Assembly: GCA_024648695.1 (NCBI GenBank)
Contig: JACAVV010000008.1
Span: 1-64,000 of the forward strand
Origin: Nitrospina sp.
GTDB taxonomy: Bacteria > Nitrospinota > Nitrospinia > Nitrospinales > JACRGP01
DNA: 64,000 nucleotides
Reading direction: 5' to 3'
A program made the translations under genes and the position numbers. Positions 31,869 to 42,369 of this stretch are shown in pieces. Below the pieces are notes generated by a model, which saw only the letters and a program-made list of their open reading frames with translations, did not search any database and was not told where the DNA came from. Numbering within the stretch: the stretch's first letter is position 1; each line of letters starts with the position of its first letter.

Positions 31869-33581
31869 TTAGATATTTTTTAACATCTCTGGGAATTTTT
31901 CCAGAATGGAGGGATAATCGTATAGGTCGGATTGGTGCGTTTTTCTGATTTTTATCTCAATCTGGCCATTTTTCAGATTTTTCGGGCCCAAAATGATCTT
32001 CATAGGTGTACCAATGAGGTCCGCGTCGTTCAATTTAACGCCAAGACGGTCGGATCGGTCGTCCAGCAGGACTTCAATTCCCATTTCAGTCAGGGTTTGG
32101 TAACAGTTATCACTGGCTTCCCGGGTTATTTCATCAGAATAATTGACCGGTATGATTTGTACTTGAAAAGGAGCGAGCGCGGTGGGCCAGACGATTCCCT
32201 TGTCATCATGGTTTTGTTCAATAGCCGCGGCGGCGGTGCGTCCCACACCGACACCATAACATCCCATGACCATCACTTGTTCCTTGCCATTGGGGTCCAG
32301 GAAATGGGCCTTGAGAGCTTCACTGTATTTGGTTCCCAGGATGAAAATATGACCCACTTCAATTCCTCTGCGGATTCCATAGGTACCCGTTTCACATTTC
32401 GGGCAAGGCGAATTTTCTTCAATTAAAGTAATATCTCCGGATTGCTCGATTGGAAAATCCCGTGACGGATTGACGCCTTTATAATGGAAATCGACCTTGT
32501 TGGCTCCGCAAAAGGCGTTTTCCATGTGGAGGACTTCGCGATCAGCAAAAATTTTAACGTTTTTCAAACTTACAGGTCCCACAAATCCGACAGGTACGCC
32601 GGTTTTTTCTTTTATGAGGCTTTCGTTGGCAGGGTGCGCCCAGGCACTTCCTGCCAGATTTTTCAATTTGACCGGATTCACTTGCCGGTCGCCACGGACG
32701 ATTCCCGCGATGAGTCCATCCTCGGTTTCGAATACGATGGTCTTGATGATGTGGTCCGGGCTGGTGCTTAAAAATTGTGTGACCTCCTCCACCGTTTTTT
32801 GACTGGGGGTAGACACCTCTTCCAAATCCTGTAAGTTTCCCGAGTCTTTGGGTTCACCAGGATCCGGTGCCTCCGCTTTTTCGATGTTTGACGCATAATT
32901 ACAGTTTGAGCAAAAAGCGATGGCATCTTCTCCAGAATCGGCCAACACGGCAAATTCATGCGAGAAACTGCCCCCTATGGTTCCTGAGTCGGCTTCCACG
33001 CGTTTGAATTCCAATCCGCATCGCTCAAAGATATTACAGTAAGCTTGGCTGACTCGCTGATACGTTTCTTGAGTGCATTGTTCATCGGCGTGAAAACTGT
33101 AGGCATCTTTCATCATGAATTCACGTCCACGCATGATCCCGAATCGGGGTCGAATTTCATCACGAAACTTGGTTTGGATCTGATACATCAGCATGGGCAG
33201 TTGGCGATAGGATTTCACTTCTTTGCGAATGATGTCGGTGATGACTTCCTCGTGTGTCGGACCGTAACAGAATTCGCGGTCATGGCGATCTTTGATTCTC
33301 AGTAATTCTTTACCGTAAAAGGACCAGCGCTTGCTTTCTTTCCAAAGTTCAGCCGGTTGAATGCTGGGGAGGAACACTTCCTGTCCGCCAATCTTGTTCA
33401 TTTCCTCACGAATGATGGCCTCTACTTTTCTGAGTACCCGGAGTCCCAGGGGCAGGATCGAGTAAATGCCAGTAGCCAGTTGGCGGACCATCCCCGAACG
33501 TACCATGAGTTTGTGGCTGATCACTTCAGCATCGGTTGGGGATTCTTTAAGGGTCGGAATAAAAAGATTGGAGTATTTCAT
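31869..33581 (-). CDS. proS: prolyl-tRNA synthetase (bacterial type)
   Basis: A 570-aa class II synthetase. Motif 1 lies in the N-terminal 'GIYSILPLGLRVLRKVEAIIREEM', motif 2 in 'KFRDEIRPRFGIMRGREFMMKDAYSF', and the editing insertion occupies about residues 225-390. Motif 3 ('GCYGVGVGRTAAA') and the anticodon-binding domain complete it. Length and insertion place it in the bacterial ProS type that deacylates Ala-tRNA(Pro). Transcribed alone, 133 nt from the phosphonate-type gene. Confidence 0.97.
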   Translation of the reverse strand: MKYSNLFIPTLKESPTDAEVISHKLMVRSGMVRQLATGIYSILPLGLRVLRKVEAIIREEMNKIGGQEVFLPSIQPAELWKESKRWSFYGKELLRIKDRHDREFCYGPTHEEVITDIIRKEVKSYRQLPMLMYQIQTKFRDEIRPRFGIMRGREFMMKDAYSFHADEQCTQETYQRVSQAYCNIFERCGLEFKRVEADSGTIGGSFSHEFAVLADSGEDAIAFCSNCNYASNIEKAEAPDPGEPKDSGNLQDLEEVSTPSQKTVEEVTQFLSTSPDHIIKTIVFETEDGLIAGIVRGDRQVNPVKLKNLAGSAWAHPANESLIKEKTGVPVGFVGPVSLKNVKIFADREVLHMENAFCGANKVDFHYKGVNPSRDFPIEQSGDITLIEENSPCPKCETGTYGIRRGIEVGHIFILGTKYSEALKAHFLDPNGKEQVMVMGCYGVGVGRTAAAAIEQNHDDKGIVWPTALAPFQVQIIPVNYSDEITREASDNCYQTLTEMGIEVLLDDRSDRLGVKLNDADLIGTPMKIILGPKNLKNGQIEIKIRKTHQSDLYDYPSILEKFPEMLKNI

Positions 33582-33713: not shown

Positions 33714-35471
33714 TCAAGGCAAAAATAAAGTGTTCGCCAATTCGATATCTTCACGGTTGTGAATTTCCAGCCAGCCTTTGTGGATTTCTAGAAAGTTGAT
33801 GTTGAATCCGCGATCAATCATTTCCTGAATGAGGTCGGTGAATGAAATCTTCGAAACGTCCTCAGCTTCCTGAAACGGGCCTTTATAATTTTTCAGACAA
33901 TCCTCATAAGTTTCGAGAAAATTCTCCGCTCCCGTTTTTGTGAACTTTGCGAGGCCAATGAATTCGTGAGTGGCGGTTTCGGGATTGATGCTTTTCCCGA
34001 TTTTGGAAATGATGTTTTCGTAGACAAAACTGATCCGACGCCGTGACGGTACGTGTTTGTTACGGCTGATTACGAAATCCACCTTTTTGCCGGTGTTATC
34101 CTTGGGAGGATGTCCGTTGGCGTCTTTATGATATTGAAAGGAATTGTCCACAACCAGAACGATGTCTTCCTTGCAAACCATCAATTTCGAGATGGTATGG
34201 TGTTCCAAAAGGATATCCGAGAACAGCATGACAAAACCGTTCGCCATTTTTTCCCTGGCCATGTATAAGCTCGATAAGACGGAGCCTTCCTTATAATTTT
34301 TGTTTTCAATAATAGTGGCGCCTCTGGCTTCCAACTGGTCTTTTCCGTACCCGGCAATCACCGTCACGTCGGTCAATTTGTTGATTTGTAACGCTTTCAA
34401 TTGGCGGGTCAATAGGGGAATGCCGCCAATTTCCACCATGGCTTTGGGTTTGGTGCCAATATAAGGCTTCAAAACCTTTTCTTCGCCCGCGGCTGGGATG
34501 ATAGCGGCTGGCCCCTTTGAAACCTGTTCTTCCTGGTCTTTTTGTTTGACGTCCAGAAAGCCCACCGACCCGAAAATATCCTTCAGGGGAGCGCAGTTGG
34601 GGTCCGCTTCATAAGACCGCTGGTTGATGAGAATGGTTTTGGCCGTTTCTTCCATTGCTTTGTAAGCCGACCGCAACAAGTGGTTGGCATGGATGACGAT
34701 ATTAAAACCGTGAGTTTTCAATTCGGCTTCGGTGATCTGGTTGTAAGTAGTGGGTACACAAACAAGAGGTTTGGTGACGCCCAACTCTTTGCATAAATCC
34801 TTGTAAGAAGCGGCAAACTCCAGAACTTCATCCGGAGACTTGGATTTGGAATGAATCATGATCCCATCAGCGCCACCCTCCAGATAACATTTAGCGCGTT
34901 TTAAGGCATTTTTTACCGATTTTCCGGCAATGAGACTTTCCAGACGGGCAATGATCATAAAATCGTCGGTAGCCTGCACACTTTTTCCGCGCCGGATTTT
35001 GTTGGCGAACAGGTGGCGGTTCTCCAGGGTTTGCTGGGTTCCGTCCTCAAGACTGTTGCGCTTGGGAAACACTTTGTCTTCGATAATAACCGCGGAGACG
35101 CCGAGCCTTTCCAGTTTGGTGACCAGGTATTCAAAATTATTGGGATCGCCACCGGTGTCGCCGTCAACAATCATGGGTTTGTTTGTGACGGATAATATTT
35201 CCTGAATCGTTTGAAGCCTGGAATCGAAACTGACGATTTCGATATCGGGCATTCCTTTCGAAGACGAATCGGTGAGACTGCTTTCCCAGAGAGCGTCGAA
35301 TTCGAGAGTCACTGGTTTGCCGTCTTTTTGGCCCTGAATGGTTACGTTGTTTACGATGATGCCGCTAAGTCCATTATGAGCTTCCATTACTCGGACGAGT
35401 TTGCCCTCTTGAAGAAGTTCTTTCAGTTTTTTTCGTCTCGCTTCGGGAAGGATGTTTTGTTTTAATGTCAT
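33714..35471 (-). CDS. phosphoenolpyruvate mutase fused to a nucleotidyltransferase
   Basis: A 585-aa fusion. Residues 1-305 are a PEP mutase of the isocitrate-lyase superfamily: D103-G-D-T-G-G binds Mg, and E131-D-K-x-F-P-K-x-N-S140 is the loop that separates true PEP mutases from other family members. It would convert PEP to phosphonopyruvate, making a C-P bond. Residues 320-585 look like a sugar/cholinephosphate-type nucleotidyltransferase ('KPKAMVEIGGIPLLTRQLKAL'), as in fusions that load aminoethylphosphonate onto CMP. The usual G-x-G-x-R before that is A-A-G-E-E-K. No phosphonopyruvate decarboxylase or transaminase is adjacent. It overlaps the upstream small gene by 4 nt. Confidence 0.85.
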   Translation of the reverse strand: MTLKQNILPEARRKKLKELLQEGKLVRVMEAHNGLSGIIVNNVTIQGQKDGKPVTLEFDALWESSLTDSSSKGMPDIEIVSFDSRLQTIQEILSVTNKPMIVDGDTGGDPNNFEYLVTKLERLGVSAVIIEDKVFPKRNSLEDGTQQTLENRHLFANKIRRGKSVQATDDFMIIARLESLIAGKSVKNALKRAKCYLEGGADGIMIHSKSKSPDEVLEFAASYKDLCKELGVTKPLVCVPTTYNQITEAELKTHGFNIVIHANHLLRSAYKAMEETAKTILINQRSYEADPNCAPLKDIFGSVGFLDVKQKDQEEQVSKGPAAIIPAAGEEKVLKPYIGTKPKAMVEIGGIPLLTRQLKALQINKLTDVTVIAGYGKDQLEARGATIIENKNYKEGSVLSSLYMAREKMANGFVMLFSDILLEHHTISKLMVCKEDIVLVVDNSFQYHKDANGHPPKDNTGKKVDFVISRNKHVPSRRRISFVYENIISKIGKSINPETATHEFIGLAKFTKTGAENFLETYEDCLKNYKGPFQEAEDVSKISFTDLIQEMIDRGFNINFLEIHKGWLEIHNREDIELANTLFLP

Positions 35472-35743
35472 GAATTTTGCTTGGGATAGGGTTCCAGGGA
35501 TTCTCGAATCCAGGGAGGCAAATAGATCGATTCCAAATCGAATCGCTTCAGTGACTCCAAAATGATGCCGACTTGCTGTTCAGCGGGCAGATTTTGATCT
35601 AATATGATATATGGCTTTTTGTTGACTAGGCAATAGCCGCTCTGAATGGTCACGTTGTCGTCGGTTAATTTGTAATACTCAATATTTATAGAAAGTTTGC
35701 CTGCAATTTCTTTTAAGGCTGTTAACCGTGACTGGGAGTCCAT
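35468..35743 (-). CDS. small conserved-looking protein coupled to the PEP mutase fusion
   Basis: A 91-aa protein starting at ATG 35743 ('MDSQSRLTALKEIAGKL'); a 42-codon upstream extension is possible but has a basic, unstructured look. It has an N-terminal helix, a beta-rich middle ('GYCLVNKKPYIILDQNLP') and a C-terminal 'RFDLESIYLPPWIRESLE'. I recognise no named family, though the architecture is typical of small conserved proteins in related phyla. The 4-nt ATGA overlap with the downstream fusion gene indicates translational coupling. Confidence 0.65.
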   Translation of the reverse strand: MDSQSRLTALKEIAGKLSINIEYYKLTDDNVTIQSGYCLVNKKPYIILDQNLPAEQQVGIILESLKRFDLESIYLPPWIRESLEPYPKQNS

Positions 35744-40998: not shown

Positions 40999-42369
40999 TT
41001 AACTGATGATACGCATTATGTCGTTATAAAATGCAAACACCATAAGGGACAAGAGCATGAACAATCCCACCTGCTGGGCGCGTTCACGGTTTCTTTCGCT
41101 GACCGGTGATCCTTTGATAGCTTCTATCAGGAAAAAGAAAATATGGCCCCCATCCAGCATGGGTATCGGTAGCAGGTTCAGTAAGCCGAGGTTGATGCTT
41201 AAAATTGCGGTGAGTGTGATGATCTCCAAAAATCCCTGTTTGGCTTGCTCTCCATAAATCTGGAAGATCAAAATAGGTCCGCCAATCTGGTCGGCTGGAA
41301 CGGTCCCTATGATCAACTTCTTGATGCTTAGGGCAATCAGGTTGATGAGTTTGACCGTTTCCTGTATCCCTCTTCTTACAGAACCGAACACCCCGTACTG
41401 TTCCAGAATCATTTCACCGCTCATACCAAGCCCTAGAACTCCATACTCTATCTTGTTGCCTTTTTCGTCCTCGCGAATTGCAGATTCCGGAGTTAAAGAA
41501 AGTTCCATGGGCGAACCATCGCGTTCAATTTTGAAGGTCAACTTTTTTCCCGGTTTATCGATGGCCGCGGTTCTTAATTCTGACCAGCCTAGAACCTTTG
41601 TTTCATCGATAGCAATCAGTTTGTCTCCAACCATTAACCCGGCCTTCTCGGCAGGAGAATCGTCCTTGATGTAGGTGATGTTGCGGACGAGAGGGGTCAC
41701 GCCGATCAAACCGACACTTTCCTTTTCACCAAACATATTGGTGACTTGTTCTACCACGGGCGTGATGGAAAAATGGATGACCTGGGTTTCATCGCGCTCA
41801 ATGACAAATTCCATTTCTTTCCCTGGGCTGTTGTGAACGATTTTTAACAATTCGTCCCAAAACCGAACCTTCTGGCCGCCCACCGAAACGATGCGGTCTC
41901 CGGTTTGAATACCGGCCATTTGCGCCGGCGACTGGTCGCGGACCATGCCCACCTGGGTGCCCAGGGTGTCCACGCCAGACATGTAGATTCCCATATAAAT
42001 GAACAACGCGAATATGAAGTTGAACAATGGCCCGGCAAAGGCAATCGCTATCCGGCCCCAGACGGGTGCGGCGGAAAAGGAACCCTCGGGATCGACATTT
42101 TCTTCTCCGGGTTCTTCCCCTTTCATTTTCACGTAACCCCCCAGGGGAATGGCGCAGATCAGGTATTCCGTGTCGCCGGATTTTTTACCTATAATTTTGG
42201 GACCGAAGCCCAGGGAAAACTTTTCGACGACCACACCCACTTTGCGCGCTACAAGAAAGTGGCCCAATTCATGGACGAAGATCAGCGCCGCCAAACCACC
42301 TAAAAATACTATGAATTTCCAGCCAAAAGTAAGAATTGCTTCCATTGGCAGGATTGAAAGTTCCGACAT
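40999..42369 (-). CDS. rseP: RIP metalloprotease RseP (site-2 protease)
   Basis: A 456-aa inner-membrane zinc protease that cuts transmembrane anti-sigma factors and signal-peptide remnants. The active site is H33-E-L-G-H37, with 'LLPIPMLDGGHIFF' as the second metal motif near residue 395. Two PDZ domains lie between (around 120-200 and 205-290, each with a clear G-L-x-x-G-D-x-I). In this order it would act after a periplasmic cut by an HtrA/DegS-type protease, and two HtrA genes exist at 57.7-60.6 kb. No sigma-E/rseA genes are in the window. Confidence 0.94.
   Translation of the reverse strand: MSELSILPMEAILTFGWKFIVFLGGLAALIFVHELGHFLVARKVGVVVEKFSLGFGPKIIGKKSGDTEYLICAIPLGGYVKMKGEEPGEENVDPEGSFSAAPVWGRIAIAFAGPLFNFIFALFIYMGIYMSGVDTLGTQVGMVRDQSPAQMAGIQTGDRIVSVGGQKVRFWDELLKIVHNSPGKEMEFVIERDETQVIHFSITPVVEQVTNMFGEKESVGLIGVTPLVRNITYIKDDSPAEKAGLMVGDKLIAIDETKVLGWSELRTAAIDKPGKKLTFKIERDGSPMELSLTPESAIREDEKGNKIEYGVLGLGMSGEMILEQYGVFGSVRRGIQETVKLINLIALSIKKLIIGTVPADQIGGPILIFQIYGEQAKQGFLEIITLTAILSINLGLLNLLPIPMLDGGHIFFFLIEAIKGSPVSERNRERAQQVGLFMLLSLMVFAFYNDIMRIIS

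Follow-up and report, generated by a model that had tools for sequence, protein, structure and literature searches.

A probable dispersed pathway for phosphonate synthesis

The Nitrospina sp. genome (4.2 Mb, 56 contigs, 97% complete) encodes a PEP mutase fused to a nucleotidyltransferase (NTase), and its phosphonate pathway, as judged from the gene complement of the order, appears complete on paper, dispersed over the genome and near-fixed among the relatives. The reading that we favour, and hold to be somewhat better than an even bet, is that of a genome-dispersed 2-aminoethylphosphonate (AEP) pathway, in which the fusion protein would perform the committed step and its NTase domain would produce a CMP conjugate for a surface lipid or glycan. 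It draws on a PEP mutase with an equivalog-level score and the catalytic motif, a transaminase above its family cut-off, and partners found across the order. The preliminary description had proposed that lipids or glycans are decorated with a phosphonate, and decoration with AEP remains the best reading, with partners now found elsewhere in the genome.

The N-terminal domain would convert PEP to phosphonopyruvate, which would be decarboxylated by a two-subunit TPP enzyme encoded on another contig and then converted to AEP by an AEP transaminase encoded on a third contig. The fused C-terminal domain would use AEP, or a derivative of it, to form a CMP conjugate, catalysis by this domain being the least certain point, and the conjugate would finally be transferred to a presumed acceptor, a surface lipid or glycan. 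The genes, the conserved PEP mutase loop and the partners across the order are observed directly; from them we infer what the enzymes do, that CTP is the nucleotide used, and the nature of the acceptor.

The fusion gene and its locus

The fusion gene (33714..35471, minus strand) lies in the window, which is the whole 64,000-nt stretch of DNA analysed, and codes for a protein of 585 aa. It is not a chance ORF, since the fusion is present in 53 of the 61 genomes searched. A small gene of an unnamed family (35468..35743, minus strand; 91 aa) shares a 4-base ATGA overlap with it, and the ORF coordinates thus bear out the coupling described earlier. A longer start of the small ORF is possible (to 35869, 133 aa); homologues align from the 91-aa start. 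The overlap is preserved in 29 of 38 aligned loci, and these 38 rows include three duplicates, leaving the 35 distinct homologues to which the residue counts given below refer. The downstream neighbour is proS (31869..33581, minus strand; Pfam tRNA-synt_2b, tRNA_edit and HGTP_anticodon), and rseP (40999..42369, minus strand; TIGR00054, 352 bits, cut-off 147.55) belongs to the wider context. No decarboxylase or transaminase match was found within the window, and both are located on other contigs; the fusion is therefore solitary in its neighbourhood, as had been stated, but not in its genome.

The PEP mutase domain (residues 16-301; 34569..35426, minus strand) passes the equivalog cut-off of TIGR02320 (355.9 versus 319.55 bits). 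The EDKxxxxxNS motif is present as the catalytic loop EDKVFPKRNS (residues 131-140; 35052..35081, minus strand), exactly as read in the preliminary description, and is identical in all 35 distinct homologues. A PEP mutase fused to a PF12804-family NTase is an already known type, and according to Rice et al. (2019; PMC6697681) such fusions account for about 33% of PEP mutases. The Nitrospina sp. fusion has in common with these fusions and with PntC the EDKxxxxxNS PEP mutase joined to a MobA-like NTP transferase, the lysine of the PK motif and the proposed tailoring of the surface via a CMP-phosphonate. It differs from them in that all homologues lack GxG(T/S)R, the partner genes are dispersed rather than clustered, and the decarboxylase is represented by two ORFs.

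Partner enzymes

The genome contains both types of partner outside the window, in agreement with the earlier expectation that they would be encoded elsewhere: a transaminase on contig C17 and a two-ORF decarboxylase on contig C26. The AEP transaminase (C17:69345-70403) scores 382.8 bits with TIGR03301 against a cut-off of 360.8, which was exceeded in none of the 14 control genomes. On C26, two adjacent TPP half-proteins jointly span the phosphonopyruvate decarboxylase model TIGR03297, with 193.6 and 128.5 bits, each below the cut-off of 312.5. They also resemble the alpha and beta subunits of sulfopyruvate decarboxylase (TIGR03845/TIGR03846; 129.4 and 186 bits), and neither reaches the cut-off of any of these models; this sub-threshold, twofold resemblance counts against the favoured reading, so that the assignment of the two ORFs stays putative. 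Upstream of them, on the same strand, are an epimerase-family gene and a gene for pyruvate,phosphate dikinase (TIGR01828, 1384 bits), which is a source of PEP. The gene order of this region is matched in genome G022.

The gene order around the AEP transaminase is seemingly equal in the C17 locus (L094) and in a locus of another genome (L170, G017:C16). In both, a gene for a DUF4159 protein adjoins it, the domain scan having covered the Nitrospina sp. genome only.

Distribution in the order

Distribution was assessed in 61 genomes, namely that of Nitrospina sp. and 60 relatives, and many of the genomes that deviate from the pattern are incomplete. Within the order the fusion is close to fixation, and the decarboxylase (matches in 54/61 genomes) and the transaminase (51/61 at E<=1e-60) largely track it. 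Three genomes (G002, G004 and G008) have no match to the fusion, the decarboxylase or the transaminase; four (G030, G032, G054 and G059) have the fusion and no decarboxylase match; and five (G009, G038, G039, G040 and G047) have the fusion and no transaminase match at E<=1e-60. Two observations on the partners count against the favoured assignment and make it conditional: no more than 30 of the 61 genomes have a transaminase scoring above the family cut-off, and two genomes, G022 and G028, match the decarboxylase and the transaminase but not the fusion.

G010, G014, G043 and G038 have one canonical decarboxylase each (484-485 bits) and no two-ORF form, a replacement suggesting that both forms serve one function. 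In one of these genomes, a stretch (L162, G010:C1, 3809-12473) contains genes for the canonical decarboxylase, a B12-binding radical SAM protein, methyltransferases, a CDP-alcohol phosphotransferase and AEP transaminase, the last two of which overlap; no PEP mutase gene occurs within the stretch read.

The named relatives found in the scan are assigned to Nitrospinaceae, Nitrospinae or Nitrospinota (L038-L043). Nitrospinaceae and Nitrospinae are known for nitrite oxidation in the sea. In the bacterioplankton of the surface ocean, 6% of Prochlorococcus and 10% of SAR11 cells are reported to carry the PEP mutase gene, which becomes more frequent with depth (PMC8931226). PEP mutase is thus a minority trait at the surface, whereas it is near-fixed in this order, which has named members in Nitrospinaceae or Nitrospinae; provided that they do make the phosphonate, bacteria of this kind could be a constant source of it beneath the sunlit layer. 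Among the titles and abstracts listed by searches of an open-access library, none concerns phosphonate synthesis in Nitrospina or in Nitrospinae/Nitrospinota. In the retrieved text of PMC8931226 ‘Nitrospina’ occurs only in a reference, and that of PMC9381506 has no mention of ‘Nitrospin’.

Origin of the fusion

Outside the phylum, the closest PEP mutases come from 14 loci (L044-L057), for example in Lysobacter and Marinospirillum, and all 14 lie in pepM-ppd-iron alcohol dehydrogenase operons. Their PEP mutase domains are 51-56% identical to that of the fusion protein, unlike which they are both unfused and clustered with pathway genes. An unrooted tree built from 49 PEP mutase domains is divided into fused and unfused rows by a single branch (support 100/100), which is consistent with a single fusion event; several families of the order stay unresolved in the tree.

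The operons of these nearest relatives indicate a hydroxyethyl- rather than an aminoethyl-phosphonate ancestry, which counts against the favoured reading as a possible sign that the product is not based on AEP. Phosphonoacetaldehyde might instead be reduced to 2-hydroxyethylphosphonate, which would then be activated, the transaminase serving another aldehyde; in line with such a route, G007 has an iron alcohol dehydrogenase gene in the vicinity of genes for a standalone NTase and for a CDP-alcohol phosphotransferase. We consider it unlikely, given that the Nitrospina sp. transaminase exceeds the cut-off of the AEP family, that most of the genomes have a match to it, and that decarboxylase and transaminase are encoded in one neighbourhood in G010.

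The NTase domain and its altered loop

The LicC/PntC-like NTase domain (residues 322-583; 33723..34508, minus strand) exceeds the Pfam gathering score of PF12804 (33 versus 27 bits). Its best match among solved structures is LicC, a CTP:phosphocholine cytidylyltransferase (1jyk, E=1.6e-9), while the match to the Tde-PntC structure 6pd1 is weaker (E=0.031). LicC (1jyk/1jyl) aligns without gaps over the loop region, in which its AAGLGTR is replaced by AAGEEKV in the fusion protein. The altered phosphate-binding loop AAGEEK (residues 327-332; 34476..34493, minus strand) had been read correctly from the outset as part of PAAGEEK (residues 326-332). PntC enzymes cytidylylate AEP and carry the signature GXG(T/S)RX4-8PK, and replacement of Arg15, Lys25 or Lys153 of Tde-PntC by alanine leaves less than 10% activity in each case (PMC6697681). 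None of the 35 distinct homologues conforms to this consensus, and AAGxGxR occurs in none of them (0/35). This lineage-wide loss of GxG(T/S)R is a departure from the known PEP mutase fusions and, in view of the arginine replacement in Tde-PntC, counts against the proposed formation of a CMP conjugate.

Several other columns of the site are preserved. The PK lysine (K343) is conserved in 34 of the 35 homologues, and D419, D442, E503, T545, W567 and E569 in all 35; D419, D442 and E569 are putative metal- or substrate-binding residues. The standalone NTases of G007, G065 and G061, which have canonical-type loops, align over the whole fused domain and share D419, D442, W567 and E569 with it. Because several active-site columns are invariant in the 35 homologues, we do not favour the view that the domain is a decayed relic. 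It had been recognised beforehand that the proposal would fall if the genome held no pathway partners and the C-terminal domain no NTase active-site residues; the partners exist, and the domain retains several such columns.

The altered loop is compatible either with a remodelled active site or with a non-catalytic domain. In the latter case PEP mutase would still make phosphonates, and the fused domain would be a pseudo-nucleotidyltransferase: it would not transfer cytidylyl groups, but by binding a nucleotide or a phosphonate it would stabilise or regulate PEP mutase. We regard this as possible without being likely. Consistent with it are the loss of GxG(T/S)R in every homologue, the low activity of the Tde-PntC R15A variant (same source) and the faster divergence of the NTase domain (mean pairwise identity 65%) than of the PEP mutase domain (76%), a difference that counts against catalysis by the fused domain and keeps the favoured reading conditional. 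Opposed to it are the seven residues preserved in 34-35 of the 35 homologues, several of which occur also in standalone canonical NTases, and the content of the Nitrospina sp. genome, where no further match to the fusion protein exceeds 25 bits, which leaves no evident LicC-like alternative for the formation of CMP-AEP. The fusion is likewise the sole match to the fusion protein in G010. The predicted model of the NTase domain has a pLDDT below 50 from residue 295 on, the alignment being too shallow, which may also be set against the favoured reading. The loop also provides a natural test of how much change in the PntC signature is tolerated before cytidylyl transfer is lost.

Candidate acceptors

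A possible ceramide-lipid cluster on contig C45 (C45:43649-50360; L256:3650-10361) is a candidate acceptor route that is correlated with the fusion and not universal. It comprises, in a row, genes for a serine palmitoyltransferase-like protein, a GNAT protein, an NAD-dependent epimerase/reductase, a CDP-alcohol phosphotransferase and an MMPL transporter. The best solved matches of the first protein are the bacterial serine palmitoyltransferases 8guh and 3a2b (360 bits), and it scores 462.8 bits with NF047600, below the cut-off of 640. The GNAT protein, which has no useful match among solved structures and no NCBIfam match, is a putative ceramide synthase on the grounds of gene order. The GNAT and epimerase genes adjoin the CDP-alcohol phosphotransferase gene in 29 of the 30 loci examined.

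Strong matches to the C45-type phosphotransferase are present in 40 of 64 genomes of the order, 39 of which have the fusion (Fisher p=0.00036, kinship ignored). Restricting the comparison to high-quality genomes gives the fusion in 20/20 genomes with and 5/8 without the phosphotransferase (p=0.017, kinship ignored). As 15 of the 24 genomes that have no strong match still carry the fusion, a ceramide-type phosphotransferase is ruled out as an obligate acceptor. The best score of the C45 enzyme, 57.4 bits, is with archaetidylinositol phosphate synthase and below the cut-off, so another head group is possible. Taken together, a scheme in which the fused domain, with its remodelled loop, makes CMP-AEP and the C45 phosphotransferase uses it to form ceramide aminoethylphosphonate, in a pathway near-fixed in the order, seems to us rather unlikely. 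A term search of the available text of a Black Sea sphingolipid survey (PMC11334938) found no occurrence of ‘phosphonate’ or ‘Nitrospin-’.

The CDP-alcohol phosphotransferase of G010 was considered as a general acceptor enzyme and set aside, as only the G010 match is strong and the others score 24-42 bits. At another locus (L102, G007:C16, 6228-10555), genes for a canonical-type standalone NTase, an iron alcohol dehydrogenase and a CDP-alcohol phosphotransferase lie close together; this may be another cluster, for a phosphonate lipid or an alcohol-phosphate lipid.

The small gene

Neither Pfam nor NCBIfam has a model that matches the 91-aa protein, and in this respect ‘undescribed’, as it was first called, is apt. 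Its gene is present in 52 of the 61 genomes and occurs together with the fusion in 50, in 49 of these on the same contig and at most 250 bases apart. This co-occurrence, with translational coupling in most loci read, would fit a phosphonate-pathway accessory, as suggested in the preliminary description. Against this, the gene persists in G002 and G004, in which searches for the fusion, the decarboxylase and the transaminase gave no match. It also occurs in 8 of the 13 relatives that belong to the class but not to the order (G061, G063 and G071-G076), and none of these 13 has the fusion. Across the phylum, a family-alignment search detected it in 62 of 77 genomes.

The gene follows rseP (named by eye) directly in six of nine outer loci (L228 and L230-L234), and not in L229, L235 and L236. 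Outside the phylum it was found in one of 13 genomes searched, a Desulfobacteraceae (L295), where the adjacent ORF, as named by eye, is exonuclease VII-like and not a PEP mutase gene. An accessory role is thus very unlikely, and we reject it, since the gene survives without pathway genes and stands mostly beside rseP in the outer relatives.

A structure model of the small protein (mean pLDDT 83.6) most resembles ImmA/IrrE-like and minigluzincin chains (best Z 8.6, rmsd 7.2 over 82 residues, 6cz6), and Foldseek returned mostly metallopeptidase-like rows, none strong (best E 0.13). Toxin structures, too, were among the rows of both structure comparisons, Foldseek and VIA. The HExxH zinc motif is absent from the protein and from the homologues read; with this and the high rmsd, the model's resemblance to a metallopeptidase-like fold is a weak lead.

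The small gene is probably an older neighbour that is now translated with the fusion gene and not a part of the pathway. Its surroundings vary within the order: in G004 the next gene is proS, the fusion gene being absent from the gap; in G002 the contig ends just past it; and in G009 the small ORF overlaps rseP, the fusion gene also being present in the genome. The parsimonious account is that the small gene came first, that the order's ancestor acquired the fusion gene between it and proS, and that genus g3 later lost the fusion gene.
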